A stretch of 64,000 bases of DNA from Bacteroidota bacterium (GTDB lineage Bacteria > Bacteroidota > Bacteroidia > 2-12-FULL-35-15), in the NCBI GenBank assembly GCA_025963725.1, contig JAOQAE010000002.1:943221-1007220 (forward strand). The letters are read 5' to 3'. The position numbers and the translations under genes were made by a program. The notes under the pieces are model-generated. The model ran no database searches. It worked only from the letters and a program-made list of their open reading frames with translations, and had not been told where the DNA came from. Shown in pieces: positions 3,743 to 64,000 of this stretch (within the stretch, counting starts at the first letter, position 1; each line of letters begins with the position of its first letter).

Positions 3743-6700
3743 ATGAGATCCAAACCGCTGCATATACTTTTAACGCTCCTGCTGCTGAACCAGATGTTCA
3801 GCTTCGGGCAGAGCAATCCTGCACCGCAGAACCTCACCTATTCGGAGAACTTCAGCGGCCTTGCATGGGCCGCCACTGCTTATCCTACAGGATTGCAGGG
3901 CTGGCAGCTTGCCGCAACGGGAATTACCGGAGCCTTCCGAACAACCGCTCCAACCGGCGACCTTGCCCTTGTTGCATCGGGCGATGCGAGCGCTGTGGCC
4001 GGCGGCTTTTACAACTACAACGGAAAGATCGGCTTCCTGTCTTCCGGCAGCGTTGATCCCGCCCTTTGCTTTTCAATTAACACCACGGGGCTGAACGGCG
4101 TTACGGTAAGCTTCGATGCGATGACGATCAGGAACCCGCATGACGGCGGCGCAAATACGAGGATCAACGAAATGGGGCTGCAATACCGGCTCGGAACAGC
4201 GGGCGCATTTACCAATGTTACCGGCTTCACGTATCAGAACAATACAACCACTCAAACCGGCGCTGTTACAACGCCGCAAAACCTGCAATCCTTTTCCGTG
4301 CTTCTTCCTACTGCCTGCGACAACCAGGCGGTGGTGCAGGTAAGATGGGTAAGCCGCCAGGTGAGCGGCGGAGGATCCCGCCCGAGCTTTGCACTTGACA
4401 ACATTTTTGTTTCCTCCTGCACCACCAACACCAGCACCTATTATTACAGGTCGAGGCAAACAGGAAGCTGGAACACCTACAGCACCTGGGAAGCTTCCCT
4501 GAACGGCATTACCGGCTGGTCGATGGCCTGCTCCGCACCTACAAGCGCAGCCGCCGCCATCACGATCCTGAGCAGCCACACGGTCACCATCAATACAAAC
4601 GCGACAGCCCCGAACCTTACGGTGGATGGCATTCTCATCTTTGACAATACGGCAAGGACTGTAGCGGTAACGGATTATGTTACGGTTTCCTCTTCAGGCA
4701 TCTTCGTCACACAGGCTGCAGGCACGGCTACGCACAGCATGAGCATTGGCGGCGACCTTACTAACAACGGCACTTTTGATATGTCGCGGGGAGGACTAAC
4801 GCTTGTGTGCAATGTTACCTTCAACAGGAACGGCAACCAAAGCATTATGGGAACAGGCGCAACCACGCGGTTCAACTTTATTTCACTGAACATGGGAACA
4901 TCAAGCAGTAATGTGCTGGATGTATCGCCCAGCTTTTTTGCGGCGGCCACCAGCTTCCTGCACCCGTCAGCTGCGGCTTCGCCAAACGGATTGCTTAACG
5001 GCACACTGAAACTATCGGGAACATTCAGCTTCACGGGCACTTTTTTCAAATCGGGGGTGAATTACAATATTGTGTCCACTGCGGGGATCTGGATCAATAA
5101 CCCGAATGTTACGATCAACGGAACGAATGATTCCTATGATGTTTCGGGGAAATTAAAGATCAGCGCGGGAACCTTCAATGCAGGCACAGCGGTTGGTAAT
5201 GCGATCCGCCTGCTCGACGGCTCATCCATGACGGTGACGGGCGGAGCAGTGAATGTTTCCGGCCGCATCCAGGCGTACGAGTCGACCGGCGCCACTGCGC
5301 AGATCACCACCTATAACCAGAGCGGCGGCGTTGTCACCGTGTCGAAAGCCGGCGTAAACGCCACATCGATGCCTGAATTTACGCTGGATCTTCCGTCGGA
5401 CAGCCTCATCATGTCGGGCGGAACAATTATTTTCCACAGCCAGGCAAGCGTTGCCGACGACCTCCTGAACAGGGCTACCAGCGTGATCACGGGCGGGCTC
5501 ATTCAATTCGGCGAGGCGAGCACCACTACGGCAACAGCGGCAGGGTTTTATGTAGAAAGCTACAGCGCATTGCCCTCCTTATCGATCTATCCCTGCAACA
5601 GCGTAACGCGTCTTGTGCTTGCCACCAACCTTACCGTGAAGGGCAGCATCACCATCGGGAACCTCACCACGCTTAACAACCGCTGGGGAACGCTTGCGCA
5701 AACGTATAACATCACGCTCAGCGGCGACTGGATCAATAACGGAACGTTCATCAATAATGGTGTGCGAACTGTGACGTTCAATGGCAGCAGCGCGCAGAAC
5801 ATTACCGGCACATCCAGCACAACGTTCAACAGCCTTACGATCAATAATTCATCCGGTGGCGTTACCCTGCAGATGCCGGCAACCGTTAACGCCAACCTCA
5901 GCCTGAGCAATGGCTATCTCTATACGAGCGCAACCAACTTACTTTCCATGAGCGCGGGATCAGCTGTGACTGCCGTTAACAACAACAGCTTTGTGTACGG
6001 ACCGATGTCGAAAACGGGAACAACCAACTTTACATTCCCCGTGGGAAAAGACCTTGAATACAGGCCGATCGGGATCAGCTCGCTGACAGGCTCCGAAACA
6101 TTCACCGCAGAGTATTTTCATGCCGATCCTTCTATTCTCTACCCGATCGCGCTGATGGACCCGACGATCACGCATATCGACGGCTGCGAATACTGGACGC
6201 TGGAGAGGGCCGGCAGCGCGGATGCATTCGTGACACTGAGCTGGGACACCTACAGCTGCGGCGTTACTTCCCTGCCCGACCTTAGCGTTGCAAGATTTGA
6301 CGCAGGGCTTACCATGTGGAAAGATGAAGGCAACGGAGGAACCACAGGAACTACCAGCACCGGCACGATCAGCACGGCTGCACTGGTAAGCACATTCGGG
6401 CCTTTCACGCTGGCGTCCACCATTGGCGGCGGCGTAAACCCATTACCTGTTGAGCTGCTGGATTTTTCAGCCGCCTACAACGGAAGCGATGTTGACTTAC
6501 AGTGGTCGACAGCAAGCGAACTGAACAACGATCATTTCACAGTTGAACGCTCGGCAAACGGCAGCACATTTTATGAGCTGAATGAAATACCGGGCGCAGG
6601 CAACAGCACGCAAACGCTTTCTTATGCTACCGTAGATAAAGAGCCATTGAGCGGCACCTCCTATTACCGCCTGAAACAAGTGGATTTCAATGGCAATTCT

Positions 6701-7012: not shown

Positions 7013-8758
7013 ATGAAAAACCTTTTTATTATTTTTAGTTTCCTGCTTAGTCACAGCATTTGTTCCCAGGTTCCCGTTTTTGAATGGACAAAACGCATGG
7101 GAGGCACAGAAATGGAAATGGGGATCACTATGGTCACTGACACATTAAACAACGTATATATTGGAGGTGTATTTTCGGGCACGGTGGATTTTGATCCGGG
7201 GCCAGGCGTTTTTAATATGACGTATGCCAACCCTTCTTCTGTCGGGGGGGACGATATATTTATCACAAAACTGGATTCCACAGGTAATTTTATATGGGCA
7301 AAAAGAATCGGAGGTATTTCAAATGAACAGATCGCAGGAATGACGATTGACCCCGCGGGCAACATTTATGCGACCGGTCTTTTTTTTGATGATACTGTAG
7401 ACTTTGATCCGGGTCCCGGTGTATATAATATGGGAACTGTTCCGGAATGCCAAAACATGTTTATCTTAAAGCTGGACAGCTCAGGCAATTTTTTATGGGC
7501 TAAAAATTTTATAACGAATGGTACCACCTACAGTAATGCAATTGCTTCAGATGCTTTTGGGAATATATATACGACCGGGGAGTTTTTCGGGTCAGTAGAC
7601 TTTGACCCGGGTAGCGGTACATTCTATCTTTCTGCGACAACCAATATTTTTGAAATATTCCTGTTAAAACTTGATTCTTCCGGCAATTTTGGGTGGGCCC
7701 GACGGCTAAAAGCATCAAGCCCCTTTACCGAAAATTCCGGCAATGGCATAGCAGCAGATGCTGCAGGAAACGTTTGCATAACAGGATTTTTCCAGGAAAC
7801 GGTAGATTTTGATCCGGGAGCAGGTACCTATAATCTGACTTCTGCGCCAAGTTCCTATGCGATCTTCGTTGCCAAATACAATGCTACAGGTAACATTATG
7901 TGGGCAAGGAATATGGGAGGCAATTCAACTAACGATATGGGTCGTTCGATCACAACCGACACTGCTAATAATATATACACAACCGGAAGCTTCTATGGGA
8001 ACTGCGATTTCGATCCGGGTGGAGGCACATATATGCTCAATGCTCCTGGCACCCTGGATGTTTTTATCTCAAAGCTGGATGCTTCAGGAAACTTTGTCTG
8101 GGCAAAAAGCATATACGGAACCGGAGGGCAGGACAGGGGATCCGCAATTGCACTTGACAAGCTTGGGAATGTATATACAGCAGGAGGCTTTATATACTCA
8201 ACAGATTTTGATCCGGGCAGCGGGACAATCGAATTGGTGAGTTCAACAGGCGATGCCTTTGTTTCAAAGCTTGATTCTTACGGAAATTATTTGTGGGCGG
8301 GCTGCGCAACAAGTACAATTGGATCCTCCCCAAGCCTTGCAATCTCTATTGCACTGGACAGGTCAGGAAGTATTTACTCTACTGGTTTTTTTTATGATAC
8401 GGATTTCAACCCTTCTTCAGATACATTTCATCTCTCCTCAAATGGTTATGGAGACGTTTTTGTGATGAAGCTGAATCAACAGGGCTTGCCTACCCCTGTT
8501 ACTAATTACACGGGTAATGCGGATGACATTCAAATTTTTCCAAATCCTTTCTTATCAGAAACTGTTATCCGGTACCCAAATAGCGGACAGCCTATAACGA
8601 TGATCATAAGCGATCTTACGGGCAGGGAGATGCAAGTTATATCCTTGAACAAATCCCCTTACCTGTTCGAAAAAGAAACACTCCAGCCAGGAATCTATAT
8701 TTTGAAATTCACTAACGCAGATAAACTATCTATCAGCAAAAGAATCGTTGTGCAGTAA
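7013..8758 (+). CDS. SBBP-type beta-propeller protein with T9SS type A sorting domain
   Basis: The 581-residue product has a signal peptide (LFIIFSFLLSHSICSQ). The body is built of seven repeats of about 65 residues, each with a DFDPG-type motif (VDFDPGPGVFNM, VDFDPGPGVYNM, VDFDPGSGTFYL, VDFDPGAGTYNL, CDFDPGGGTYML, TDFDPGSGTIEL, and the degenerate TDFNPSSDTFHL) and a phrase like KLDSSGNFLWAK. This is the SBBP (beta-propeller) repeat pattern, and seven units suggest one closed seven-bladed propeller. The C-terminal 75 residues form a T9SS type A sorting domain (IFPNPFLSE to GIYILKFTN...SKRIVVQ). Codon use is more AT-rich than in the gene before it. It ends 14 bases from the convergent TPR gene. 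The function is unknown. Confidence 0.85.
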   Translation: MKNLFIIFSFLLSHSICSQVPVFEWTKRMGGTEMEMGITMVTDTLNNVYIGGVFSGTVDFDPGPGVFNMTYANPSSVGGDDIFITKLDSTGNFIWAKRIGGISNEQIAGMTIDPAGNIYATGLFFDDTVDFDPGPGVYNMGTVPECQNMFILKLDSSGNFLWAKNFITNGTTYSNAIASDAFGNIYTTGEFFGSVDFDPGSGTFYLSATTNIFEIFLLKLDSSGNFGWARRLKASSPFTENSGNGIAADAAGNVCITGFFQETVDFDPGAGTYNLTSAPSSYAIFVAKYNATGNIMWARNMGGNSTNDMGRSITTDTANNIYTTGSFYGNCDFDPGGGTYMLNAPGTLDVFISKLDASGNFVWAKSIYGTGGQDRGSAIALDKLGNVYTAGGFIYSTDFDPGSGTIELVSSTGDAFVSKLDSYGNYLWAGCATSTIGSSPSLAISIALDRSGSIYSTGFFYDTDFNPSSDTFHLSSNGYGDVFVMKLNQQGLPTPVTNYTGNADDIQIFPNPFLSETVIRYPNSGQPITMIISDLTGREMQVISLNKSPYLFEKETLQPGIYILKFTNADKLSISKRIVVQ

Positions 8759-52976: not shown

Positions 52977-54620
52977 TTACTTTCCAGCTCTGCCACTCTT
53001 CTTTACCTTCTTCAGCGAAAGCATGTTCATGGAATTGGAGGTAAGCCCTTCTACATTGTTCTGCACAAGGCGCACCACCTGGTCGTAATACAGCGGCACC
53101 ACCGGCGCATTGTCGATCAGCAGCTGATCCATCTGCTGGTAATAATCGTAGCGGATAGAATCGTTCAGCTCGCTTTGTGATTTCTCATACAGTATATCGA
53201 ACTGCGGGTTCTGGTAATGCGTGTAGTTGAACCCTTTCGGGCTCCAGTTCTTGCTGTAGAACAGCGACAGGAAATTTTCGGCATCCGGGTAATCGGCATT
53301 CCAGGATTTACGGAAGAAATTCACTTTCATGTTCGCGATCGATTCGAAGAGCACGGAAGCCTTCTGCACATCGATCTTCATTTTGATCCCGAACTGTGAA
53401 AGCTGCGACTGGATATACTCTGCCAGCTCGAGGTATTGCTCGGTGGTCGACAATGAAATTTCCGGCAACCCTTTGCCATCCGGGTAACCGGCGAGGAACA
53501 GCAACTCCTTCACCTTATCGGGGTTGTAATCGTAGCCCTTCACCTTGTTGGCATCGAAGGATGGCAATCCCGGCGGAATAAAGCCGGAAGTGGCGGCATA
53601 GCCTAAATTCTTGCGCAGGTACTTCACCATTTTTTTACGGTCGAAGCCATAATTGATCGCCTGGCGGATGGCCTTGATCTTCAGCGGCGAGTTCTTCATA
53701 ACAGGATGCTGGTCGTCAATAAAAAAGCCGAGGTAATCGGTTTTGAGGAAGGGCTGCGTCTGCATCTTGATCTTTTTCTGGTAATTGCTTTTCAGCTTTC
53801 CTTCCGGCGTCAGCACTTCATCGGTATTGATCGCATCCACACCCGACACCATATCGAGATCGCCCTTCATGAAATCAAGGAAGGACGATTCCTTATCGCG
53901 GATGAAGGAAACAGAAACCGCATCGAGGTATGGAAGCCGCTCGCTGCCGGCGAATTCGAAGTAATTGGGATTTTTTATAAACACCAGCGTGGAGCCTTCC
54001 TCCCACATTTTGAACATGAAAGGGCCGGTTCCGCAAGGGTTCCGCCTGAACTCCTCCCCTTCGCCGAGGATCACCTCTTTGGGCACCACCGAAAAATATT
54101 TCATCGTAAGGATGCTGAGAAAGGGTGTAAATGCCTTTTCCATGTGGATCACGAAAGTGGTATCGTTCATGGCCTCGAAAGGGTTGCCATTCTTGGTATC
54201 AACATAGCTGAGCAGCGTGGTTGCATTGGAGACCTTGGCATCGAGAAGACGGTTATAGCTGTACACAAAATCCGAAGCGGTAACTTTCCTTCCTTTGCCT
54301 TCCGGGAAATTTTCATTGTCGTGAAAGAACACATTATCCCGCAGGTGGAATGTGTAGGTAAGTCCGTCCTCCGAGATGTTCCATGCCCTTGCGATGGAAG
54401 GCTCCACCTGCAATGCATCGCTCATCTCCACCAGCCCGTTAAAGATCTGGTTCACCACCCAGATATTCTCAAATGAGCTCGCCTTCGCAGGATCCAGTGA
54501 AGTAACAGCGCCCATCTCATTGTATTTGAAAACGGTTCGCGTGTCGTGCTTCGCCTCATCGCCGGATGTGCAGGCAACGGCAAAACAGGCAAGGAATATA
54601 TAGAGGAACAGGTTCTTCAT
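52977..54620 (-). CDS. ABC-transporter substrate-binding lipoprotein, family 5 (oligopeptide/nickel type)
   Basis: I place the start at the ATG at 54620, giving a 547-residue lipoprotein with signal NLFLYIFLACFAVAC (Cys18). An upstream in-frame extension to 54974 has no supporting feature. The mature protein is a family 5 solute-binding protein: GAVTSLDPAKASSFENIW, YTFHLRDNVFFHD, ASDFVYSYNRLLD, GTGPFMFKMW, AIRQAINYGFDRKKMV. Such proteins bind peptides, nickel or other ligands. No permease or ATPase gene is adjacent, so the transporter partner is elsewhere or absent. A TAAACTTG box lies 22-29 bases upstream of the start. Confidence 0.92.
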   Translation of the reverse strand: MKNLFLYIFLACFAVACTSGDEAKHDTRTVFKYNEMGAVTSLDPAKASSFENIWVVNQIFNGLVEMSDALQVEPSIARAWNISEDGLTYTFHLRDNVFFHDNENFPEGKGRKVTASDFVYSYNRLLDAKVSNATTLLSYVDTKNGNPFEAMNDTTFVIHMEKAFTPFLSILTMKYFSVVPKEVILGEGEEFRRNPCGTGPFMFKMWEEGSTLVFIKNPNYFEFAGSERLPYLDAVSVSFIRDKESSFLDFMKGDLDMVSGVDAINTDEVLTPEGKLKSNYQKKIKMQTQPFLKTDYLGFFIDDQHPVMKNSPLKIKAIRQAINYGFDRKKMVKYLRKNLGYAATSGFIPPGLPSFDANKVKGYDYNPDKVKELLFLAGYPDGKGLPEISLSTTEQYLELAEYIQSQLSQFGIKMKIDVQKASVLFESIANMKVNFFRKSWNADYPDAENFLSLFYSKNWSPKGFNYTHYQNPQFDILYEKSQSELNDSIRYDYYQQMDQLLIDNAPVVPLYYDQVVRLVQNNVEGLTSNSMNMLSLKKVKKSGRAGK

Positions 54621-54751
54621 ATCGGGGGATTTTTCGTCCTTCAAGTTTAAGGAATCATTCCGCAACAAATGGTTGGTGGGGAATACAATTATTAACAGTC
54701 TTTTTAACAATACGGATCGCGAATCTTTTCGAATATACGGAATGCTCTGCT

Positions 54752-54777
54752 CCCTCCTCTTAGGAGGGTCGGGGTGG
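54752..54777. repeat. CCCTCCT/AGGAGGG palindrome and following AT-rich repeat
   Basis: CCCTCCTCTTAGGAGGG is followed by TCGGGGTGG. After it come TTTTCTTTTTTCTTGATAAA and AAAGAAACAAAAAATCAAG (54790-54835), which look like dispersed elements known in this phylum. In the 443-base gap 54621-55063 I see no gene; a TTCGTA/TTCGTTATTC run at 54988-55024 precedes mtaB. Confidence 0.5.
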
Positions 54778-55063
54778 TACATCACAAATGTTTTTCTTTT
54801 TTCTTGATAAAAAAGAAACAAAAAATCAAGAAAGCCTGATCGCTTCCCACGGGCAACACGGCATCGCAGGCTTTCAAGCCTCACGCGCGGCTCCTTAATT
54901 ATGTGAGCTACTAAATGTTGAGACTGCGATAAATGGTGTATGATTAATGCAGGCAGAATGTTGGGGTGGCACACTACGTTTAACTACACCGATTCGTAAA
55001 ATTCGTCAGGATTCGTTATTCGCATCATCTGTAGCGGTATTTTTTCGTAAATTCGCAATCCCA

Positions 55064-56392
55064 ATGAAAAAAGTAGCATTCCATACACTCGGCTGCAAGC
55101 TCAATTTTTCGGAAACAAGCACCATCGCGCGCCTGTTCCAGGAAAACGGCTACCAGAAGGTGGACTTCAGCCAGCCTTCCGATGTGTACGTGATCAATAC
55201 CTGTTCCGTTACCGCCAATGCCGATAAGGAATGCAAGCAGATCGTAAAGTCTGCCCTCAGCGTTTCTCCCGATGCATACGTGGTGGTGGTTGGATGCTAT
55301 GCACAGCTGAAGCCGGAAGAGATCGCGAACATTGAAGGTGTGGACCTTGTGCTGGGCGCTTCCGAAAAATTCAAATTGCTCAATTACCTCGAAGACCTTC
55401 AGAAAAAAACAAAGGCGGAGATCTACAGCTGCGAGATCGAGGAAGCCAATTTCTTTGTGGATGCGTACTCGTTTGGCGACCGCACCCGCGTATTTTTAAA
55501 GGTGCAGGACGGCTGCGATTACAACTGCTCCTTCTGCACCATCCCGCTGGCACGCGGAAGCAGCCGCAGCGACACCATTGAAAATGCACTGAAGAATGCA
55601 AGGAACATTGCAAAGGAAGATGTGAAGGAGATCGTGCTTACGGGCGTTAACCTCGGCGATTTCGGAAATAATGCATCAAAGGAAGGCAACCGAAAGCAGG
55701 AAACATTTTTCAGCCTCGTGCAGGAGCTCGACCAGGTGGAAGGCATCGAACGTTTCCGCATCTCTTCCATAGAGCCCAACCTGCTGAAGAACGAGACCAT
55801 CGAATTTGTTTCAACATCGAAACGCTTCGTTCCCCATTTTCATATTCCCCTGCAATCGGGAAGCAATAAGATATTAAAGGCCATGCGCAGGCGCTATATG
55901 CGCGAGCTATACAGCGACCGCGTGGCTACCATCAAATCGCTCATGCCGCACTGCTGCATTGGCGTGGATGTGATCGTTGGATTTCCCGGCGAAAGCGATG
56001 AGGATTTCCTCGATACCTATAATTTCCTCAACACGCTGGATATTTCGTACCTGCATGTATTCACCTACTCGGAGCGCGACAATACCGACGCAATCACTCA
56101 CAAGGATGTGGTTCCCGTGGCCATCCGCAAAAAGCGCAACAAGATGCTGCGCATCCTCTCTGCAAAAAAGCTGCGCCATTTTTATGAGCAGCACCTCGGT
56201 GAAACACGTACCGTTTTGTTCGAAGGCGACAACAAGGGCGGCTTCATGCATGGCTTTACCGACAATTACATCAAGGTGAAAACGCCTCACAATCCCGCAC
56301 TGGTGAACCAGCTGAAGGAAGTAACATTGCGGGAGCTCGATGCCGACGGCTCTGTGCTCGTGGATGTGATGGTGGAAGAGTTGGCCGGTTAA
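55064..56392 (+). CDS. mtaB: tRNA t6A37 methylthiotransferase MtaB
   Basis: MtaB is a radical SAM enzyme that makes ms2t6A at position 37 of ANN-decoding tRNAs. From the ATG at 55064 it has 442 residues, the family length; a longer frame to 54947 runs through repeats and a promoter-like TAAATTCG. The N-terminal UPF0004 domain has Cys11, Cys47 and Cys78 for the auxiliary cluster; the radical SAM motif CDYNCSFC is at 151-158. Later RISSIEPNLL, FHIPLQSGSNKIL and VGFPGESDEDF are seen. A short C-terminal TRAM-like end follows. Confidence 0.95.
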   Translation: MKKVAFHTLGCKLNFSETSTIARLFQENGYQKVDFSQPSDVYVINTCSVTANADKECKQIVKSALSVSPDAYVVVVGCYAQLKPEEIANIEGVDLVLGASEKFKLLNYLEDLQKKTKAEIYSCEIEEANFFVDAYSFGDRTRVFLKVQDGCDYNCSFCTIPLARGSSRSDTIENALKNARNIAKEDVKEIVLTGVNLGDFGNNASKEGNRKQETFFSLVQELDQVEGIERFRISSIEPNLLKNETIEFVSTSKRFVPHFHIPLQSGSNKILKAMRRRYMRELYSDRVATIKSLMPHCCIGVDVIVGFPGESDEDFLDTYNFLNTLDISYLHVFTYSERDNTDAITHKDVVPVAIRKKRNKMLRILSAKKLRHFYEQHLGETRTVLFEGDNKGGFMHGFTDNYIKVKTPHNPALVNQLKEVTLRELDADGSVLVDVMVEELAG

Positions 56393-56559
56393 ACAAGGAC
56401 AGTTCCATCAAAAACCCTGTTATTTTTATTAAAATGTGCCCCGAATGTTTTATATTCGTTTGGCAATGCCATTGCTTTGAATTGTATCGGCAATAAAATT
56501 TTGGCAGGATAAGCGCTATAATGTAGCGGGGATATTACAACATCCAAACATAGACTGAC

Positions 56560-57027
56560 ATGAAATACATTTTAATTACCGGAACAAAGGATGCCGGAAA
56601 ATCAACGACCATTGATGCTGTCTGTAAAAGATTAAATCCATCGGTTGTACAGAGGTTAACTGCAGACAGGACTTTTGAAAAAGTTGACCCCACTATTGAC
56701 TTTCTTAATGGGACATATATCATCGAGATTAAAGGAAAAATAATCCTTGTAGTTGCAGGAGCTCCGACCGAACAAAATATTCAAATTACTATCTTGATTA
56801 AGATTTGTATAGAATTGAAAATAAAAATAGACTTCGCTTTAGTTTCTAAACGAACATTTGAAAGAATTGAGAATTTTGATACAGTAAATGAACTTAAAAA
56901 CTTTGGAGAGTGCCTTTTAGAAGAACGGATAAATAGAGTTTCTGAAGACAACTTCGAGGAGTCAGAAGAATGGAAGAGCCGTATAGAAAAAATTTGCAAA
57001 CTTGTTAAGACAACATTACAGCTTTAG
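56560..57027 (+). CDS. Small P-loop NTPase-like protein
   Basis: The 155-residue protein opens with a Walker A motif, ILITGTKDAGKSTTID (Lys14). A strand with ILVVAGAPTEQ near residue 65 could hold the second nucleotide-binding motif, but no clear Asp of a Walker B is present. The rest is predicted mixed alpha/beta with charged C-terminal helices. I recognise no named family. The AT-rich codon use differs from mtaB upstream. It ends 35 bases before a proteasome-like gene and probably forms one unit with it. Confidence 0.75.
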   Translation: MKYILITGTKDAGKSTTIDAVCKRLNPSVVQRLTADRTFEKVDPTIDFLNGTYIIEIKGKIILVVAGAPTEQNIQITILIKICIELKIKIDFALVSKRTFERIENFDTVNELKNFGECLLEERINRVSEDNFEESEEWKSRIEKICKLVKTTLQL

Positions 57028-57062
57028 ACGGCTAATTGCTAAATGAACCAAGAATAAGAGAA

Positions 57063-57875
57063 ATGACCTTAGTAGTTTCGTGGATAGGAATTGATTCAAG
57101 AAAAATATCATCGCTTTATATAGCAAGTGATAGTCGCATTTCTTGGGGCAACATTGCAAGGTTTGATAGCGGAAGAAAAGTTTTTGGTTGCAAAAATCAT
57201 CCGATAATTATTGGCTATTGCGGTGATGTGATGTTCCCTTCAATTGTAATTAATCAACTTGTTGACCTTGCAGACCAAGGGGTTCTATTTCCAGAAAATT
57301 CAAATAACGAAGATAAATTTCAACTATTCTATCAAAAATTAAAGACGCAATTCGATAATTATCCATCAGAAATTAATGGAATTACGACCGATACTCTTGA
57401 AATCTTATTTGCAAGCAGAACTGGCGAAACTGATTTCTTATGCCGAAAGGCAATGTGGACAAAGAGTAGTAACAATTGGGCAACAGAAGATTTAGTGTTT
57501 TCGCCTTATTCAGATAAACTCTTTGTAATAGGTTCTGGTAAAGTAGAATTCGAAGAAAAATTTACTCAATTCTTAAAAAGTAATGAGGCAAAAACTAGCC
57601 GTGCAGTTTTTCAATGTTTTTGTGAAACACTTGAGAATATAAATGACGTTTATTGTGGCGGGTCACCACAGTTAGTCGGACTTTATAATCGGTTTAATTC
57701 AAAACAATTTGGTATTATTTACGAAAACAAAAGATATTTACACGGGATTGAATTAAATTCTTCAATTGACTATAATGTAGTTGAATGGCGAAATAAATTG
57801 TTTGAAATTTGTGATGGAGCAACAAAAGAGATTAAGCCGAATGCTCAAAGACAACCACGTTCTTTGACAAGGTAA
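57063..57875 (+). CDS. Proteasome beta/HslV-like Ntn hydrolase (putative)
   Basis: I use the ATG at 57063, since it places Thr directly after Met (MTLVVSWIG), as in HslV. An in-frame TTG at 57036 would add nine residues. Counting from that Thr as 1, Asp22 in YIASDSRISWGN and Lys38 in SGRKVFG are 16 residues apart, the same gap as Asp17 and Lys33 in HslV and the proteasome beta subunit. IIIGYCGD follows as the Gly loop, and VIGSGKVEFEEKF matches the IGSG helix of the fold. The 270-residue length is longer than HslV (about 175). Family assignment rests on these motifs. A peptidase role, and oligomer formation, are inference. It has no adjacent HslU. Confidence 0.7.
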   Translation: MTLVVSWIGIDSRKISSLYIASDSRISWGNIARFDSGRKVFGCKNHPIIIGYCGDVMFPSIVINQLVDLADQGVLFPENSNNEDKFQLFYQKLKTQFDNYPSEINGITTDTLEILFASRTGETDFLCRKAMWTKSSNNWATEDLVFSPYSDKLFVIGSGKVEFEEKFTQFLKSNEAKTSRAVFQCFCETLENINDVYCGGSPQLVGLYNRFNSKQFGIIYENKRYLHGIELNSSIDYNVVEWRNKLFEICDGATKEIKPNAQRQPRSLTR

Positions 57876-57934
57876 AGAGGCGATTCCCTGGGCCTCCACC
57901 AATATTGAATAAAGACTTGGGGGTGCTAGAGCTT

Positions 57935-57965
57935 GGTAACTTGACGGGAAACCGTCAAGTTTACC
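57935..57965. other. Strong hairpin with GAAA loop
   Basis: GGTAACTTGACGG and CCGTCAAGTTTACC pair with one bulged T around a GAAA loop. No T-run follows on either strand, so it is not an obvious terminator. It lies between the Ntn-hydrolase-like stop and the HTH gene's 3' end. Confidence 0.6.
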
Positions 57966-57978
57966 TACCGGGGTTCAA

Positions 57979-58215
57979 TTATTTTTCTGTAGACACCAAC
58001 AACTCCCGAATATCCACTTTCAAAAATTTAGAGATCTCGTATAGCGTTTCAATAGACGGCTGGACTTCATTTGTACACCAACGTGAAACGGTTGATTCAG
58101 TTTTATCCAAATGACTTGCTAAATCCTTACTGCTTTTATTCTTTTCAGCCAGGATAGACTTTATTCTATTTAAGTTTACTTTCGACACGGTGCAAATTTT
58201 TGACTTCTCCTGCAA
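57979..58215 (-). CDS. XRE/Cro-type helix-turn-helix regulator
   Basis: The frame from a TTG at 58215 encodes 78 residues; a GTG at 58188 gives 69 residues and may be the real start. The HTH_3 fold is clear: RIKSILAEKNKSSKDLASHL, DKTESTVSRWCTNEVQPS, IETLYEISKFLKVDIRELL. It is divergent from the SymE-type gene, 120 to 150 bases away, so it is a likely regulator of that gene or of a neighbouring system. Confidence 0.8.
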   Translation of the reverse strand: MQEKSKICTVSKVNLNRIKSILAEKNKSSKDLASHLDKTESTVSRWCTNEVQPSIETLYEISKFLKVDIRELLVSTEK

Positions 58216-58285
58216 ATATCACAAAATTTTAATTACCTGAAAATCATAGCCTAAAGACAATAAATAATATTTTCATGCGCTATTG

Positions 58286-58317
58286 TTTGCACGTAATTAT
58301 TATTAATTGTATTATTG
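58286..58317 (+). promoter_or_regulatory. Promoter of the SymE-type gene (TTTG - 20 nt - TATTATTG)
   Basis: TTTG at 58286-58289 and TATTATTG at 58310-58317 are 20 bases apart, fitting the Bacteroidota -33 TTTG and -7 TAnnTTTG arrangement with one mismatch. The GTG start at 58336 follows by 18 bases. It lies in the divergent gap shared with the HTH gene. Confidence 0.55.
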
Positions 58318-58335
58318 TAGCAAGAAATTATTGTC

Positions 58336-58560
58336 GTGTCGAAAGAAAAAAAATTTCAACAAACCGGAAAAAGACAACTGAAGGTGTACGGAAGGTACAT
58401 TCCACGGTCTTATTACAGGTCAGTTATCTTTCCCGAAATCCGACTTTGTGGAAAATGGTTACGTGATATTGGCTTTACTTGCGGACAAGCTGTTACGGTT
58501 CTACACGAGAAAAATAAAATAATAATAACGGTAGACAACGAAACTGAAACTGCCGACTGA
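58336..58560 (+). CDS. SymE-family toxin-like protein
   Basis: The 74-residue product (GTG start) contains the SymE signature VIFPEIRLCGKWLRDIGFT and a final strand KIIITVD. SymE in E. coli is an endoribonuclease toxin held off by an antisense RNA (symR); other relatives are found as solitary genes. Here no antisense RNA can be shown, and a divergent HTH gene could be the antitoxin or repressor. The stop is nine bases before an attC-like element, as in an integron gene cassette. Confidence 0.75.
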   Translation: MSKEKKFQQTGKRQLKVYGRYIPRSYYRSVIFPEIRLCGKWLRDIGFTCGQAVTVLHEKNKIIITVDNETETAD

Positions 58561-58569
58561 AAATACTGC

Positions 58570-58703
58570 CGCTAACAGCGGCTTGGCAAAAGTGGCGGCT
58601 TCGTGCTTAGTGTGACAGTTTTTTCGTAAATTTGAAAATGCGTGCTTCGTAAGAAAATTTGCGCTAAAAAACGCCACCTTCGCCAAGCCGCAAACCGTTA
58701 GCT
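58570..58703. repeat. attC-like imperfect inverted-repeat element
   Basis: The outer arms GCTAACAGCGGCTTGGC (58571-58587) and GCCAAGCCGCAAACCGTTAGC (58682-58702) are complementary with a short unpaired insert (AAACC vs A), and an inner GTGGCG/CGCCAC pair follows. Ends with CTAAC and GTTAG are like integron attC R'' and R' sites, though the outermost bases do not match GTTRRRY exactly. The centre holds TTTTTTCGTAAATTTG (58619-58634), matching a recurrent promoter motif in this window. Placement directly after one stop and 24 bases before the next ATG fits a cassette junction. A MITE is the alternative. Confidence 0.55.
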
Positions 58704-58726
58704 GTAATGCTTAAATAGAAACCGGA

Positions 58727-59710
58727 ATGCTTAAGCTTTATTTAGACTGGAACGTCATAACTACTTTGCGACAAATTGATGAATTGACGAATCCCCTCGA
58801 CAAAGAAACTTTTAACAAGCTCGCGCATATACTTATAGCAGGACGTGAAAAGTTAATATTGCCATATTCCAATGCACACTTGAAAGATCTTTCAAAGAGT
58901 TATAAAAAAGGAGAAAGAAAACGAGTTACTGAATCCCTAAATTTTATTTCATTATTGACCCAAGACATTTGTTTGACACAGTATTGGAATGAAGAGAAAG
59001 CAAAATGGCATTATCGAAATCCAAAAACATTTTTTGAATCTTTAATCAAAGACGTAGAAACCACAAATTCATTGTATGGTTTAAAGGAATCTTTAGCTGA
59101 ACTCGGACTCTCAAATGTTTTTGATAGTTTTAAATTATTACCTCATAATATTGACTTTCAACAACTGGAGCAGAATAAAGTGTTTTCATTGATTTTTAAG
59201 CGCGCAAAACTAGAGAATAGTTTATATGCTTTAATGGAAGACATCACCGAATTGTTTGGTGAATTAAGAAATAATCCTGTTGTATATAATGAACTCCGTT
59301 CAATGTTTACAACCGTTTTTCCGCTTGATCCAAAAATTCATAATGTTCCAAATGTTGTAGAGAGGCTCAGAGACAAAATTTCAAAGACAATGATTAATGA
59401 ATCCTTTAAAGGATTAAAGGAAAACACTAACAAGACTTCTAAAAATGAAGATTACACTAAAATAATAGGAACTTTTATGCAATTGGACTTTGCTGGTTAT
59501 GGCACTGACAAACTCACAGAAAAGAATCAATATGATAATTTATTCAACGACTCCTTGCATTGCTTCTATGGCGCGCATTGCGACTTTTTTATAACGGCTG
59601 ACAAAAAAACTTATAAAAAGACAAAGGCTGTTTATCAGAGTGAGGGCATTTTAACCCAGGTTATGAAACCTTCAGAATTTGTAGAACTATTGGAAAACAC
59701 TAACAGCTAA
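58727..59710 (+). CDS. PIN-like domain protein (putative RNase)
   Basis: The 327-residue protein begins MLKLYLDWNVI, with an early Asp as in PIN nucleases, and ends with FNDSLHCFYGAHCDFFITADKKTYKKTKAVY (only parts count), where a second acidic cluster and ITADK fit the PIN C-terminal region. The middle (about 60-270) is helical and not recognised. The acidic residues Asp6, the Asp/His pair and the ITADK Asp could form the metal site. It stands alone between an attC-like element and another AT-rich gap. I call it PIN-like only by motif and position of acidic residues. Confidence 0.6.
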   Translation: MLKLYLDWNVITTLRQIDELTNPLDKETFNKLAHILIAGREKLILPYSNAHLKDLSKSYKKGERKRVTESLNFISLLTQDICLTQYWNEEKAKWHYRNPKTFFESLIKDVETTNSLYGLKESLAELGLSNVFDSFKLLPHNIDFQQLEQNKVFSLIFKRAKLENSLYALMEDITELFGELRNNPVVYNELRSMFTTVFPLDPKIHNVPNVVERLRDKISKTMINESFKGLKENTNKTSKNEDYTKIIGTFMQLDFAGYGTDKLTEKNQYDNLFNDSLHCFYGAHCDFFITADKKTYKKTKAVYQSEGILTQVMKPSEFVELLENTNS

Positions 59711-59852
59711 CACAGGTCTGGCGCCATTTGGGCACCTCGCTCCGCAAGACAAATTAATATTAACTTTGAAATCAGGCTTCGCAATTAAAAAAGGCACCTA
59801 TCCACTTTAGCCACGTACAGGGTGTTTAATCTTCCACCTTTAAAGCACGTGC

Positions 59853-60566
59853 TTAAAGTGAATGTTTCTCTTTAATAAAATCCAAGAATGCTTTTCCTGT
59901 CTCCAAAACAATGATTTTAGGCAACTTCCCTTTAGGTACTTCACTCATTAAAAGTGTTTGTAACCCAAAAACCTCTCCTTCAAAATCTTCAACAGTATCA
60001 CTGACACGTATTAGTCCCCTGGAGATAAGTTCCATTAAGTAAATCTTAAATTCGTGGTTGTACCAGTCAATTTCTGCATCCTTACCTTTTAGAAGGGTGA
60101 TAAATTCTAAATAGTTTTCAATTTCGCTTAAGAGTTCTTCGTTTTGTGATATGCTGGTAAGAAGTTTAATGTGATTTACCGAAAGTTCATCTACGAACCG
60201 CAGGAATGTAAGCTTAATATCCGTATTCAACGAGCTCTCAGGTGTATTTAGGATTACATTTTTAAGGTGGTTAAGTTTACTTTCCTGGTGATTTCGTGAG
60301 GCAACTTGAACAGCTTGAATAAGGATTGAAGTGAACTCTTCATTCTCCCGTAGTCTTTCAAAGGCAAATTCATCTTGAAATTTTGATAACTCCAGTAGAG
60401 CTTTATATATATTTTCTCGCCAAGCTTCTAAACGTTTTTGATGAAATGATGGAAATATTAAATCAAGAAGGGGGCTTGCAGGGCCCATAAACGACTTAAT
60501 AGACTCTTTCGTGCCTCCGCTAACTTTACTGATAATCGTTTCTTGGGGTGGTTTAATTGAGTCCAT
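59853..60566 (-). CDS. Unknown protein paired with Abi-alpha
   Basis: The 237-residue protein is mostly alpha-helical with a Pro/Gly-rich short N-terminus (ESIKSFMGPASPLLDLIFPSF) and a C-terminal winged-helix-like end (IYLMELISRGLIRVSD, TLLMSEVPKGKLPKIIVLE). I recognise no domain. The segment just after the N-terminus and the HQKRLEAWRENIYKAL helix echo the layout of the next gene (KKLVGPSVEEMG, VKKWRFNNQVKNLKKI), so the two may be distant homologues. It starts two bases after the Abi-alpha gene ends. Confidence 0.65.
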   Translation of the reverse strand: MDSIKPPQETIISKVSGGTKESIKSFMGPASPLLDLIFPSFHQKRLEAWRENIYKALLELSKFQDEFAFERLRENEEFTSILIQAVQVASRNHQESKLNHLKNVILNTPESSLNTDIKLTFLRFVDELSVNHIKLLTSISQNEELLSEIENYLEFITLLKGKDAEIDWYNHEFKIYLMELISRGLIRVSDTVEDFEGEVFGLQTLLMSEVPKGKLPKIIVLETGKAFLDFIKEKHSL

Positions 60567-60568
60567 AT

Positions 60569-61219
60569 TTATTGAGTTTTATCATTGCTCGTAACGCCAT
60601 TTGTTATTGGGTTTCTATGGCATGCTTGATAGAACGCATGACCAAAATGTGTCACCCTTACACTGCTATGCGTTTCTATGTTTTTTACAAATGCAAAGTC
60701 TACATTAACCATTGTTTTAACAAGTCCAAGTCGAACTAAGTTCGCGCACTCAAAGGCTGTATATTTTGGCTCGGAATAAGTTGCAGGCGTGGGCAACCCG
60801 TCCCACTCAATCAATTCACCACTATAAAAATCATCTATGATTTTTACTTCTTTGGAGGATAACTGCCTAAGGATTTCTGGATAAACAATGGTTTCGAGGT
60901 TCTTTGCGGGGTCGATATAATTAGTAATAAGATTGGCCCACAATTCATGAAGATCATTGTCTTCCTCAAGCGATATTGCTTCCAAATATGGGAAAAGCAC
61001 TTTAGGGTTAATTACCCTGGCAGGAATATTATCTTTTTCAAGTTTCTCCTTAATTTTTTTCAAGTTTTTAACTTGATTATTAAACCTCCATTTTTTAACG
61101 TTGTCGGCAAACAACAGTCCCATTTCTTCAACAGAAGGGCCTACAAGCTTTTTAAGGAAGCCCGTTGCAGTTTCCAAAGATTTATCAATTGTAGACGATT
61201 TAATATTTAGTTGGGCCAT
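60569..61219 (-). CDS. Abi-alpha (DUF4393) family protein
   Basis: The 216-residue protein matches the Abi-alpha/DUF4393 pattern: TGFLKKLVGPSVEEMGLLFA, then VKKWRFNNQVKNLKKI and, near residue 80, YLEAISLEEDNDLHELWANL. DUF4393 proteins are linked in the literature to abortive infection-type phage resistance. A C-terminal winged-helix-like part (FECANLVRLGLVKTM, THFGHAFYQACH) is also seen. It has a partner gene directly downstream. The DNA-binding or effector role is not shown. Confidence 0.75.
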   Translation of the reverse strand: MAQLNIKSSTIDKSLETATGFLKKLVGPSVEEMGLLFADNVKKWRFNNQVKNLKKIKEKLEKDNIPARVINPKVLFPYLEAISLEEDNDLHELWANLITNYIDPAKNLETIVYPEILRQLSSKEVKIIDDFYSGELIEWDGLPTPATYSEPKYTAFECANLVRLGLVKTMVNVDFAFVKNIETHSSVRVTHFGHAFYQACHRNPITNGVTSNDKTQ

Positions 61220-61379
61220 AGAATTAGCTTATTCAGGAATTAGAGTAATGATTTATAGAGTGTCCCCATAATGCGGGGGATCTGATGACTTGAGGTTTGA
61301 TCGTGTAAGGTTATTTATTGTTTAGCTAAAATACCACTTTTGAAATAATTTCTCGAAGGAATTTTGTTAAAAAACTATT

Positions 61380-61387
61380 TACTTTTG
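61380..61387 (+). promoter_or_regulatory. -7 promoter box (TACTTTTG) of the 61415 gene
   Basis: TACTTTTG matches TAnnTTTG, 27 bases before the ATG at 61415. The gap 61220-61414 also holds a CCCC/GGGG inverted repeat near 61263-61280, with no gene. Confidence 0.5.
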
Positions 61388-61414
61388 AGTAAGGTTGGTT
61401 TAAATTAAAGGTTA

Positions 61415-61744
61415 ATGATTAATTATATGACAGGAAATACAAAGACAGAAGAAGTAGATCAAGCTTTCGTTGATGCAGCGATTGAAAGATTAATGGGTCA
61501 ATTATACATAAATTCTAAAAAGGGAATAGACTTCAGTTACAGAGATCGAAATCGGATTATGAGGATTTACAATGCCTTTAAGAAGAAGCATAAATCTTCT
61601 AAACATCTCTTAAATGAGATAAAAGATATAGTTAACGAATCTCGTTTGGATTTCCTCATTTCAATGAAAGAGATAAATCCAAATTTGATAACCGAAGGTT
61701 CAATATACTTCACTCACTTTATCACACCCTTGGGGCTAAAATAA
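61415..61744 (+). CDS. Small hypothetical protein
   Basis: The 109-residue protein is helical and basic in its middle (YRDRNRIMRIYNAFKKKHKS), with no known motif. A promoter-like box precedes it. The 3' end overlaps the convergent gene at 61722 by 23 bases, which is odd and may mean that only one is translated or that the two regulate each other. Confidence 0.5.
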   Translation: MINYMTGNTKTEEVDQAFVDAAIERLMGQLYINSKKGIDFSYRDRNRIMRIYNAFKKKHKSSKHLLNEIKDIVNESRLDFLISMKEINPNLITEGSIYFTHFITPLGLK

Positions 61745-62036
61745 ATATATTTATACAATCATTTTTTGTTGCACCAGGAAGCGGATCATCTCCTAAACTT
61801 TGAAAGGGGTGAATAGCAAGTATTTTTTGACTAATAGCTAACGCTGTGGGCCTGTTTGGCAGTTCCAGAAGGGAACGAACCAAATTTACTGAAAAGTTAA
61901 ATTTCCAATCAAGAACTTCTTTAGAAGCATTGGTTATGCCAAATGAATATGTTTCTGAATTATTAAGATCAATATCTTCAAGAAGCTTTTGAATATATTT
62001 ATCATTATCATTTGGTGGGGCAGGGAATATAGTCAT
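61722..62036 (-). CDS. Small hypothetical protein
   Basis: The 104-residue protein has an ATG start and a TATATTTG promoter box 17 bases upstream. The segments DNDKYIQKLLEDIDLNNSET and VLDWKFNFSVNLVRSLLELP suggest a helical, soluble protein. No family is recognised. It overlaps the convergent 61415 gene at its 3' end. Confidence 0.55.
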   Translation of the reverse strand: MTIFPAPPNDNDKYIQKLLEDIDLNNSETYSFGITNASKEVLDWKFNFSVNLVRSLLELPNRPTALAISQKILAIHPFQSLGDDPLPGATKNDCINIFILAPRV

Positions 62037-62052
62037 TGTTATATTTTTTAAT

Positions 62053-62060
62053 CAAATATA
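62053..62060 (-). promoter_or_regulatory. -7 promoter box (TATATTTG) of the 61722-62036 gene
   Basis: On the minus strand this is TATATTTG, matching TAnnTTTG, 17 bases before the ATG at 62036. It supports that short frame as a real gene. Confidence 0.5.
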
Positions 62061-62127
62061 AAATATATTGAGATATAAATGATGGTGTTGGGAAATTACT
62101 ATTTAACTCAATTAAAAAAATAATTAA

Positions 62128-62694
62128 ATGAAATTCAAGCACATTACAGGCTGGACCACCTATAGTTTGGGACAGATTTATAATAGCCCTCCCATAGAAT
62201 CCGATTATTGGAAAGGTAAACTTATTAATGATAAACAAGCCAGTGCAGAAATTGAAGGAATGTTTAACATAATTCAACAGCTTATTGCCCATTCCAAAAT
62301 AGACATATCTTTTATACCTGTAGAACTCCAAAAAGCGAAATACTATTCGGAATTACTTAAAGAATTCATTTTTGAAGACATTAGAGCGAGCGAATTCCCG
62401 AACCTGCCTTCTCGTAAGAAATGCATGTTTTTGATTCCTTTTGAAGTTAATGCTATGGCCTATGCGGAGAATATGAAATATCCCCTGGATAATAAAACTC
62501 TTTTAGAACTGGAACTCCAAGACCCTTATTCACTACATTATGCTGATTTGACACTCCTAAATTGTAATAGTATGCCGCATCCTCAAAAAGTGGAGGCGGC
62601 GAGACGATATTGGCAAGGGACTGAAGAAAGAGGTTTAAATACGGAAGTTCTCTTTGAAGGGAGATTTAAAATAGCTAAAGTTATCGAGAAATGA
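62128..62694 (+). CDS. Hypothetical protein, possible DUF2441-like
   Basis: The 188-residue protein begins MKFKHITGWTTYSLGQIY and ends with ARRYWQGTEERGLNTEVLFE, a phrase that recalls DUF2441 (an ADP-ribosyltransferase-related family), but I cannot confirm this. The middle is helical (AEIEGMFNIIQQLIAHSK, YYSELLKEFIFEDIRASEFP). It lies divergent from the small minus gene at 62036. The function is unknown. Confidence 0.6.
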   Translation: MKFKHITGWTTYSLGQIYNSPPIESDYWKGKLINDKQASAEIEGMFNIIQQLIAHSKIDISFIPVELQKAKYYSELLKEFIFEDIRASEFPNLPSRKKCMFLIPFEVNAMAYAENMKYPLDNKTLLELELQDPYSLHYADLTLLNCNSMPHPQKVEAARRYWQGTEERGLNTEVLFEGRFKIAKVIEK

Positions 62695-62763
62695 CTTGTA
62701 GCGTAAGGTTGGATGACTCAATTTTCTGGTTTTGAGTTGATAAAATTGATATTTTTGTAATAT

Positions 62764-62837
62764 TGAGGAATGAAAAGATATAGCTGAATTAAAAGAGGAA
62801 TTAAAAGCTCGGACGCGCATTAAGCAAAAAAAATAAG
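62764..62837 (+). pseudogene. Possible remnant of a coiled-coil gene
   Basis: A TATTTTTG promoter-like box (62750-62757) is followed by a frame reading KDIAELKEELKARTRIKQKK and a stop, with no start codon in that frame. This looks like the last residues of a lost gene or a short decayed one. It lies in the 196-base gap before the HNH gene. Confidence 0.3.
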
Positions 62838-62890
62838 GCTTCTCGGTTTTTACAACCCCTTTATTGTAAAAGAATTTTAACCTTACTTCC

Positions 62891-63631
62891 ATGAAAAAAA
62901 GCTTTCAAAATGTTAAAGTTGACTTTTCTGAAGCTGAACTCTCTGAAATAAATACTCAGATTGCGAAGTTTGATATATTCTTTACGAAAGAGGATTTTGC
63001 GTTACTTAAAAAGTATGCGCTTGACGAAGTAGTAGGGATATTAAAGCACATCACTGAAATTAGATTTACGAAGGATGGGACGCTTGAGATAGATTTAATA
63101 TATCAAGTTATAAAGTTAATGGGAAACCGTTTGAAGACAAAACGGGTCAAAAACCCTTTCCTTTTACTTTCACTTATGGATAGGCTTGTTGTAGTACTAC
63201 TACTTAAGCTAAATGATGCAGATAACTTAACCGATACGGAGAAATATCAATTGTTTAATACTATCCTTGGTTCAATAACTAAAACTTTATTGGTTGAAGG
63301 GATTAAAATGGACGAGTTTCTTCCTAAAACAGCAAAGACCAAAAAGTTCCTTCGAGCTAAATTAAATCAAAATCCTCCTGAACAGGTTAAAAAGAAAAGG
63401 ATTACAGTTCCTCAGAAACTTGTATATGAATTACAAAAGCAAATAGGCTCAAAATGTCCTTTTTGCGATAATGATGACGTTGCCCATTTTGATACTCATC
63501 ATATAGACGAGAATCCCTCTAATAACAACTTGGAGAATCTGCTGCGCCTTTGTAAGATATGCCATTCGAAAATTACTAAAGGAGATATTTCCCGGCAGGA
63601 AGTTATACGTATTAAAAACAGTTTGAATTAA
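62891..63631 (+). CDS. HNH endonuclease domain protein
   Basis: The 246-residue protein carries a C-terminal HNH nuclease domain: two Cys in CPFCDNDDVAHFDTHHIDE, then NNNLENLLRLCKICHSKI with the Asn and the second CxxC. The first 180 residues are helical and unrecognised (SEAELSEINTQIAKFDIFF, VDLIYQ-like strands) and may sense or recognise a target. The basic linker KKKRITVPQKLVYELQKQ precedes the nuclease. A role as a defence or restriction effector is plausible from the setting, but unproven. Confidence 0.85.
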   Translation: MKKSFQNVKVDFSEAELSEINTQIAKFDIFFTKEDFALLKKYALDEVVGILKHITEIRFTKDGTLEIDLIYQVIKLMGNRLKTKRVKNPFLLLSLMDRLVVVLLLKLNDADNLTDTEKYQLFNTILGSITKTLLVEGIKMDEFLPKTAKTKKFLRAKLNQNPPEQVKKKRITVPQKLVYELQKQIGSKCPFCDNDDVAHFDTHHIDENPSNNNLENLLRLCKICHSKITKGDISRQEVIRIKNSLN

Positions 63632-63708
63632 TGAAACTAATCGACAGCAAGAATAATAAATGAAATCTTGTCGGTCAATTTTTGTTTTGGAGGGATGCAA
63701 TCAGTTAA

Positions 63709-63969
63709 TCAATTTGCCAGGCAGTAACATACAAAATCCCAAAGAAAGGTCGCTCTCCCGTTTAGATATTCTTCCTTGCTTGGATGCTCTTTCGTCTTTT
63801 TAAATTGCTTAAATCGTTCTTCATAAGCATCTACCAGATACCTCGCATCTTCAATATCCGTTATATCAAAAAGATATATTCCAGTAAGCTTATTCATCTC
63901 CGATACCTCTTGTAAAGTTACAAGTATCCCCGCAGATGAAAAATTGCCAATGTCGTTTGTGTCCGTCAA
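63709..63969 (-). CDS. Small hypothetical protein
   Basis: The 86-residue frame starts at a TTG at 63969, preceded by AGGAGG five bases upstream, one of the few Shine-Dalgarno-like sites seen here. An in-frame stop is a few codons further up. The product (AYEERFKQFKKTKEHPSKEE, FLWDFVCYCLAN at the end) has no recognised domain. An ATG at 63897 would shorten it by 24 residues. Confidence 0.5.
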   Translation of the reverse strand: MTDTNDIGNFSSAGILVTLQEVSEMNKLTGIYLFDITDIEDARYLVDAYEERFKQFKKTKEHPSKEEYLNGRATFLWDFVCYCLAN

Positions 63970-64000
63970 ACCTGCCTCCTTTTGGATTTAGTTAACTTTA

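Follow-up and report, generated by a model that had tools for sequence, protein, structure and literature searches.

The peptidase gene, its RNA and the surrounding island

The window, a stretch of 64,000 nucleotides from the genome of a Bacteroidota bacterium, carries at 57063–57875 (+) a gene for a 270-residue predicted proteasome-like Ntn hydrolase, hereafter the peptidase, which we characterized through its open reading frame, an AlphaFold2 model, Foldseek and VIA-align comparisons and residue conservation in 67 homologues. Directly after its stop codon begins a structured RNA element (57876–57976, +). Upstream on the same strand, across a gap of 35 bases, lies the open reading frame of a 155-residue P-loop protein with the motif GTKDAGKST (P0002, 56560–57027). 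An initial annotation had recorded both frames and their spacing, and had placed them in an AT-rich accessory region with Abi-alpha, SymE and HNH genes; all of this is found in the DNA. GC content falls from about 0.49 to 0.33–0.38 on entering the island, which holds past the peptidase gene an Abi_alpha gene (family match 3e-24), a SymE-like gene (58336–58560, +; 3.9e-9) and an HNH-like gene (a weak match, 0.008).

Several other features of the island were observed. An XRE/HTH_3 regulator gene (57979–58215, −; 3.5e-12) lies directly past the RNA element on the opposite strand and adjoins the SymE-like gene. An orphan gene for 327 residues (58727–59710, +), whose product starts MLKLYLDWNV, is PIN-like by eye, and PIN-like genes also adjoin the peptidase gene in two related loci, L008 (10938–11441, −) and L056 (2148–3392, +). 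On the reverse strand, 59853–61219 holds an adjacent gene pair, the upstream member being the Abi_alpha gene (3e-24; PADLOC PDC-S47, 2.5e-9) and the other encoding 237 residues with no family match; this is possibly an Abi-alpha pair. A DUF2441 protein (62128–62694, +; 1.8e-9) with weak similarity to the CRISPR-associated Csm6/Cas_APE2256 (0.0015–0.009) is possibly a CARF-like relative, and an HNH protein at 62891–63631 (+) weakly matches ZorE models (7e-6). Beyond the window, positions 1–14000 of L139 (from the window end to about 8 kb past it) show the AT-rich island running to about 14 kb into L139, after which GC is about 0.47; this part includes an ISXO2-like transposase gene and, by eye, a gene for a TM0106/RecB-like nuclease-like protein. 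A tRNA integration site was considered and rejected, as there is no tRNA gene in the window or the following 40 kb.

Predicted fold and active site of the peptidase

The AlphaFold2 model of the 57063–57875 product, built from a 64-sequence input, reached a pLDDT of 93.2 and a pTM of 0.92, with its elements in the expected order. At E≤0.001 Foldseek gave 507 PDB matches; the listed ones are chains of the proteasome, of Anbu or of BPH, with E-values down to 1.6e-8. Using VIA-align, the model superposed on Anbu with a Z-score of 17.6 (202 residues, r.m.s.d. 2.9) and on the β subunits of M. tuberculosis, Rhodococcus and Methanocaldococcus with a Z-score of 17.4. The structural alignments start with model residue 2 (Thr2) placed on chain residue 1, the catalytic Thr1. 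Modelling and structural search, the checks that the initial annotation had proposed, thus returned the proteasome/HslV-type hydrolase that it had predicted, and an α-β-β-α Ntn fold for the modelled product is well supported.

Counting methionine as the first residue, position 2 is threonine in 64 and serine in 3 of the 67 full-length homologues and position 23 is aspartate in 66 and glutamate in one, and Lys39, Ser24, Trp28, Gly54, Gly157 and Gly159 are invariant (67/67). The predicted nucleophile is Thr2, which becomes Thr1 once the methionine is removed, accompanied by Asp23, Lys39, Gly54 and the G-S-G at 157–159; downstream of Gly157 and Gly159 the homologues carry a D-x-x-[SCT/V]-G-G segment. 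We take these positions to be those of Thr1, Asp17, Lys33, the oxyanion glycine, Ser129 and the Asp166/Ser169 region of the proteasome, in which a glutamate at position 17 is known also from Thermoplasma. The Met-Thr start, the Asp22 and Lys38 lying 16 apart when counted from that threonine, the GYCGD loop and the IGSG had all been read correctly from the single sequence, and the near-invariance of the Ntn residues across the 67 homologues argues that this pattern is not due to chance. The family has no propeptide, so the nucleophile should be exposed by ordinary methionine aminopeptidase. Catalysis by the predicted hydrolase is likely.

A divergent, rare and widely scattered family

No model in Pfam, NCBIfam or PADLOC recognises the window protein, and Pfam and NCBIfam likewise gave no match for the 63 relatives scanned alongside it; PF00227 was among the families listed at E≤1 for none of these 64 members. 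Because newly described proteasome-like subfamilies have very low sequence similarity (Fuchs, Alva and Lupas, PMC8665760), this lowers the case for a classical proteasome subunit, not that for the fold. The PHROG 1040 family ('peptidase HslV family') matched the window protein at 6e-5 over 50 residues and matched 13 of the 64 members weakly, a viral fold library returned remote HslV-like phage proteins and nothing else, and single-sequence phmmer gave proteasome β matches below threshold. Profile comparison of the family with 17 HslV sequences in hhalign was not significant (probability 0.6%, 21 columns), so that homology rests on structure and on the active-site pattern; a PDB profile search with the family alignment returned chance matches alone. 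A scan of the host genome found no PF00227/HslV member.

The initial annotation had limited the bacterial members of the fold to HslV, the actinobacterial proteasome and Anbu, a view outdated by work of 2021 that revealed abundant proteasome homologues in bacteria and described BPH and 22 further proteasome-like subfamilies, for which neither a genomic context hinting at function nor RNA is mentioned (PMC8665760). The window family shares with these 22, for example the widespread PMI-4, the Thr/Ser1, a broad and patchy bacterial distribution and the lack of a known AAA+ partner; judged by their descriptions, the window protein may belong to one of them, and its broad distribution fits PMI-4 best. 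With the 20S proteasome β subunit and Anbu it has in common the fold (Z-scores of 17.4–17.6 over about 200 residues), the N-terminal threonine, the Asp/Lys pair 16 apart like Asp17/Lys33, the G-S-G before H3 and a D-x-x-[SCT]-G-G that resembles the Asp166/Ser169 region of the proteasome. Unlike them, it is only about 12–14% identical, falls below PF00227 detection in 64/64 proteins scanned, has no propeptide, is paired with an RNA and has no alpha subunit or AAA+ partner that we could see. HslV (ClpQ) likewise combines the Ntn fold with an IGSG motif and no α subunits, whereas the window family is longer (about 272 against about 174 residues), does not align significantly at the profile level and has no conserved neighbour cluster suggesting HslU.

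Relatives of the peptidase were found on 4 plasmid types and at 69 genomic loci, in Bacteroidota, Balneolota, Pseudomonadota, Actinomycetota, Cyanobacteriota, Verrucomicrobiota, Chloroflexota, Gemmatimonadota, Acidobacteriota, Myxococcota, Omnitrophota and one Bacillota metagenome-assembled genome, where the copy barely differs from one in Bacteroidota; the 67 full-length relatives span about a dozen phyla. The gene is rare, occurring in 3/395, 2/321 and 1/297 genomes, counts that include the query or seed genome of each sample and, for 3/395, a weak, stop-broken match. Phage records and IMG/VR contain no relative, which argues that this is not a phage gene in those collections. One further locus, L148, resembled an independent test but was not counted, having the same RNA score as L063 and a similarly truncated gene; the two are probably the same genome.

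Gene and RNA form the shared block, without the P-loop gene

The nearest relative of the window peptidase, in L008, is 89% identical at the protein level. Comparing window positions 54000–64000 with this locus by blastn gave a single match, at 57056–57978 (+) with 87% DNA identity, which runs from seven bases before the ATG through 103 bases past the stop codon and so contains the gene and the RNA and nothing else. This match indicates that the two are a unit inherited or transferred together.

P0002, which the initial annotation had taken for the partner of the peptidase, lies outside the block. It has no relative in any other locus of the peptidase family or in 72,556 plasmids; among 296 genomes of the phylum a convincing relative is likewise absent, the one partial match (E 6e-4) lying inside a larger frame; nor does it match an AAA+ family above a curated cut-off. 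The genes upstream of the peptidase in its relatives are unrelated to each other. The initial annotation had itself named a lack of conserved co-occurrence as grounds for refutation. With no such co-occurrence of the two genes, and with P0002 outside the shared block, the partnership was rejected: of the earlier interpretation, the Ntn hydrolase in a defence-rich accessory region stands and the small NTPase as its partner does not.

A conserved structured RNA beside the gene

Across the flanks of all loci a motif starting GCAACTCCC recurs, in some directly past the stop codon and in others, as its reverse complement, shortly before the start. The corresponding RNA, of about 90–110 nucleotides, starts with a conserved single-stranded GCAACUCCC; its other parts are a closing stem, two hairpins and a junction, which is likewise conserved. 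The initial annotation had made no mention of it. In the window, fold and consensus pairs place the 5′ strand of the closing stem P1 (CCCTGG) at 57886–57891 (+), pairing with 57968–57973 (CCGGGG), and that of P2 at 57892–57898 (+), pairing with 57918–57924, with a P2 loop that begins in a conserved CCACC. The long hairpin P4 (57935–57965, +) varies in sequence and keeps its pairing, 14/14 of its pairs having changed on both sides across the family. The window RNA has a fold z-score of −3.3, and our second-round covariance model R2, built from 35 sequences without that of the window, scores it at 30.1 bits (E 1e-4).

Covariation was seen in two alignments. RNAalifold, applied to an 11-sequence MAFFT alignment that was not fitted to any structure, predicted 26 pairs, 17 of them with compensatory double changes. 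The A11 pair-count alignment, which unlike the former leans towards its own structure, gave 95.1% standard pairs and 235 cells with double changes, where shuffles gave 65 and slid controls 33–58. G·U cells far outnumber A·C cells (74 versus 3, and 28 versus 3 in the unfitted alignment), so it is the modelled strand that pairs as RNA. By these substitution patterns the element past the peptidase gene is a conserved structured RNA. Rfam holds no match for the window element at E≤10, and none at E≤5 for its counterparts in those element-bearing loci that were scanned.

In the window and 73 relatives, some of them partial, which together make 74 sources, R2 found 50 elements at E≤0.06, the E-values of the covariance model being rough; 15 of the 50, including that of the window, were outside the training set. 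Each lies within about 160 nucleotides of the peptidase gene. No convincing second element occurred in any of the 74 sources, in about 1.25 Mb of flanks, and none in 20 random control stretches of 20 kb, drawn from only 8 genomes. Among 247 genomes of the phylum the RNA was found at the window locus alone, and 240 genomes of the class to which the host of L035 belongs yielded the known copy and one match, in G465, that we rejected as a chance G+C-rich inverted repeat with no peptidase gene nearby. There was thus no convincing copy away from the peptidase gene in 487 genomes, at filters stricter than for the loci, under which weak copies can be missed.

This cloverleaf RNA adjoins the peptidase gene in 54/67 loci (47 assigned by the covariance model, 7 by the first model, R1, or by eye) and does so in three arrangements: downstream on the same strand in 22/67, mostly starting directly after the stop codon; upstream and pointing away from the gene in 28/67, 34–159 nucleotides before the start; and upstream on the same strand in 4/67. 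A tRNA-like RNA takes its place in 5/67, and 8/67 have no recognised partner RNA, six of them forming one clade (L049, L055, L056, L057, L068 and L069); within this clade, blastn found no flanking element shared by L049, L055–L057 and L068, and Rfam scans found none. At L036 a different, third cloverleaf-like set of hairpins, matched by neither RNA model, was seen by eye directly past the stop codon (4109–4200). A maximum-likelihood tree requires at least 11 changes of RNA state, with the RNA still adjacent to the gene. Peptidase gene and structured RNA are in tight and specific genetic pairing, and we regard it as very likely that they constitute a genuine protein–RNA unit. Where the RNA is transcribed in the direction away from the gene, it must lie outside the peptidase mRNA, which argues for action in trans.

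tRNA-like RNAs in place of, or beside, the cloverleaf

ARAGORN predicts a tRNA gene within about 30 nucleotides of the peptidase stop codon in L004, L030 and L035; with 13 ARAGORN tRNAs in about 1.25 Mb, we estimate that about 0.07 would lie so close by chance. Rfam tRNA matches beside the stop codon of L030, L041, L048 and L051 score 38–45 bits, compared with 72 bits for an ordinary tRNA in L049, and a further tRNA-like RNA by the stop codon of L005 was recognised by eye. L030 and L035 have both a cloverleaf and a tRNA-like RNA, and between L048 and L051 the tRNA-like flank alone is common to both. Replacement of the cloverleaf by a tRNA-like RNA has occurred in at least three places of the tree, a hint that the tRNA-like shape is of importance. 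Inspection by eye gives them acceptor stems of 4–5 base pairs and no encoded CCA, which argues against their being charged.

Mobile, defence-rich neighbourhoods

The module usually sits among anti-phage genes, in mobile defence-rich regions. At E≤1e-10, 150 PADLOC models were matched by 133 proteins in the neighbourhoods, compared with 3 models and 134 proteins for the controls, a contrast rather than a calibrated test, the models being redundant and the controls coming from few genomes. This enrichment shows location, not function. No protein neighbour is conserved across the loci, the largest cluster being an AAA_13-type one at 4 loci; the neighbours include AAA_13 (PrrC/RloC-like) proteins, a HEPN/Toprim protein and a type III methyltransferase. 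At L013 (7210–12331) the bacterial RNA-repair pair, Pnkp (PNKP_ligase, 1e-176) and Hen1 (Hen1_L, 6e-104), directly encloses the peptidase gene and its RNA, with one member on each side. Read by eye, gene and RNA of L018, and probably those of L016, are bounded by integron-type GTTRRRY cores, with attC-like sites apart from the RNA; the window copy showed no such cores or sites. L008 and L057 each have a flanking integrase.

Two further observations concern single loci. Three evenly spaced, sub-threshold matches to the CRISPR-DR29 repeat lie by the peptidase gene of L053 (4973–5154; best 31.6 bits, cut-off 39), and a Phage C4 antisense RNA (57.8 bits) at 7644–7730 (−) of L051 puts that peptidase copy near prophage sequence.

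Discussion

Placed in this setting, peptidase and RNA probably work together as one previously undescribed defence unit, and a role of the module in conflict or defence, judged from its sequence context, seems to us the better bet. The best explanation that we can offer, held at somewhat less than an even chance, is that of a mobile peptidase–RNA module of defence islands in which an RNA acting in trans restrains the peptidase until infection. Its first component would be a hydrolase of about 270 residues with an N-terminal threonine, sometimes serine, whose nucleophile is exposed by methionine aminopeptidase; its second, a trans-acting structured RNA, for which some lineages have substituted a tRNA-like RNA whose acceptor stem looks short. 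The RNA would bind the peptidase and hold it inactive or correctly assembled. Damage to the RNA or its titration upon infection, for example by tRNA-cleaving nucleases of phage or host, would release the peptidase, which would then cut proteins of the cell or the phage and so bring about abortive infection; the scheme would resemble that of a type III-like RNA antitoxin, with a peptidase as the effector. That the RNA restrains the peptidase at all is, taken by itself, possible rather than probable. As a mere suggestion, the tRNA-like RNAs, the PrrC/RloC-like neighbours and Pnkp/Hen1 hint at a link to tRNA cleavage or repair; an anti-phage ribonucleoprotein in which a tRNA-mimicking RNA controls a threonine peptidase, converting damage to tRNA-like RNA into proteolysis, would be a speculative and rather unlikely extension.

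Known systems offer partial parallels. Type III toxins are endoRNases, and AbiF is an Abi_2/Cas13-like protein. Type III toxin–antitoxin loci resemble the module (54/67 rows) in having a dedicated structured RNA beside the gene, but carry tandem RNA repeats upstream, where the module has a single copy, often downstream, and a predicted proteasome fold. The closest functional precedent is AbiF with its adjacent neutralising non-coding RNA RCd22: there, as in type III systems, a single conflict protein is accompanied by an adjacent, separately folded RNA acting in trans (PMC12373285). The window protein differs in being a predicted peptidase, with an RNA unlike any Rfam family. DRT9 is likewise a two-part unit of one enzyme and one non-coding RNA, which drives the assembly and activity of a reverse transcriptase rather than an Ntn hydrolase (PMC12489045).

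This last case lends itself to a second reading, fairly unlikely in our judgement, in which the RNA is an activator, scaffold or substrate that nucleates an active oligomer, as the DRT9 RNA drives oligomerisation (PMC12489045), or serves as an acyl carrier for an Ntn enzyme working as a ligase or transferase. It draws on the same pairing of RNA and peptidase as the restraint model and on the at least three tRNA-like replacements, which suggest that a tRNA-like shape matters; the ligase version has a counterpart in connectase, a monomeric proteasome homologue that is a ligase (PMC8665760), but the short acceptor stems and the lack of an encoded CCA in the tRNA-like RNAs speak against an acyl carrier. 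It is improbable that the peptidase is an ordinary accessory enzyme for quality control or detoxification within the island, its RNA merely aiding expression: the patchy and rare distribution (at most 3/395 genomes in a sample) and the existence of other proteasome homologues with no known function (PMC8665760) would suit such an enzyme, but not the tight RNA linkage and the strong defence-gene neighbourhood.

We give little credence to a cis-regulator or terminator of the peptidase mRNA. A strong hairpin can end transcription, and in 22/67 rows the RNA lies on the same strand at or very near the stop codon, but in 28 it is upstream and oriented away from the gene, outside the peptidase mRNA, and a terminator would not be expected to have conserved single-stranded segments and a junction. 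Similarly slim is the prospect that the element is an attC-like recombination site of folded single-stranded DNA, serving the mobility of a cassette and functionally unrelated to the peptidase: gene and element are the block shared with L008, which an integrase flanks, and copies occur in integron-type arrays (L018, probably L016), but each locus has a single copy, about 1.25 Mb of flanks hold none next to any other gene, the attC-like site of L018 with its GTTRRRY cores lies outside the element, the 74 G·U against 3 A·C cells are those of RNA pairing on one strand, and a cassette end would not be expected to occur in three relative arrangements. The ATP-dependent self-compartmentalised protease of P-loop NTPase and Ntn protein proposed initially has next to no chance, as its 35-base gap on one strand is outweighed by a 155-residue P0002 that lacks relatives in the other family loci and the plasmids, convincing ones in 296 genomes and any AAA+ match above a curated cut-off, and that lies outside the L008 block; in relatives, moreover, the upstream genes are unrelated to each other.

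Our searches of open-access literature turned up no account of a proteasome-like protein paired with an RNA, and the survey of the 22 subfamilies does not mention RNA (PMC8665760); we therefore rate the protein–RNA pairing as new in kind. The protein by itself belongs to a known superfamily, either as a new member or as one already described. With the pairing and the defence-gene surroundings, an orphan proteasome-like enzyme gains a partner RNA that can be tested directly, and its function becomes experimentally accessible. If the RNA controls the enzyme, this would amount to a new mode of protease switching and to a protein–RNA immune system of a new kind, and if a tRNA mimic does control the threonine peptidase, the proteasome superfamily would gain its first member under RNA control.
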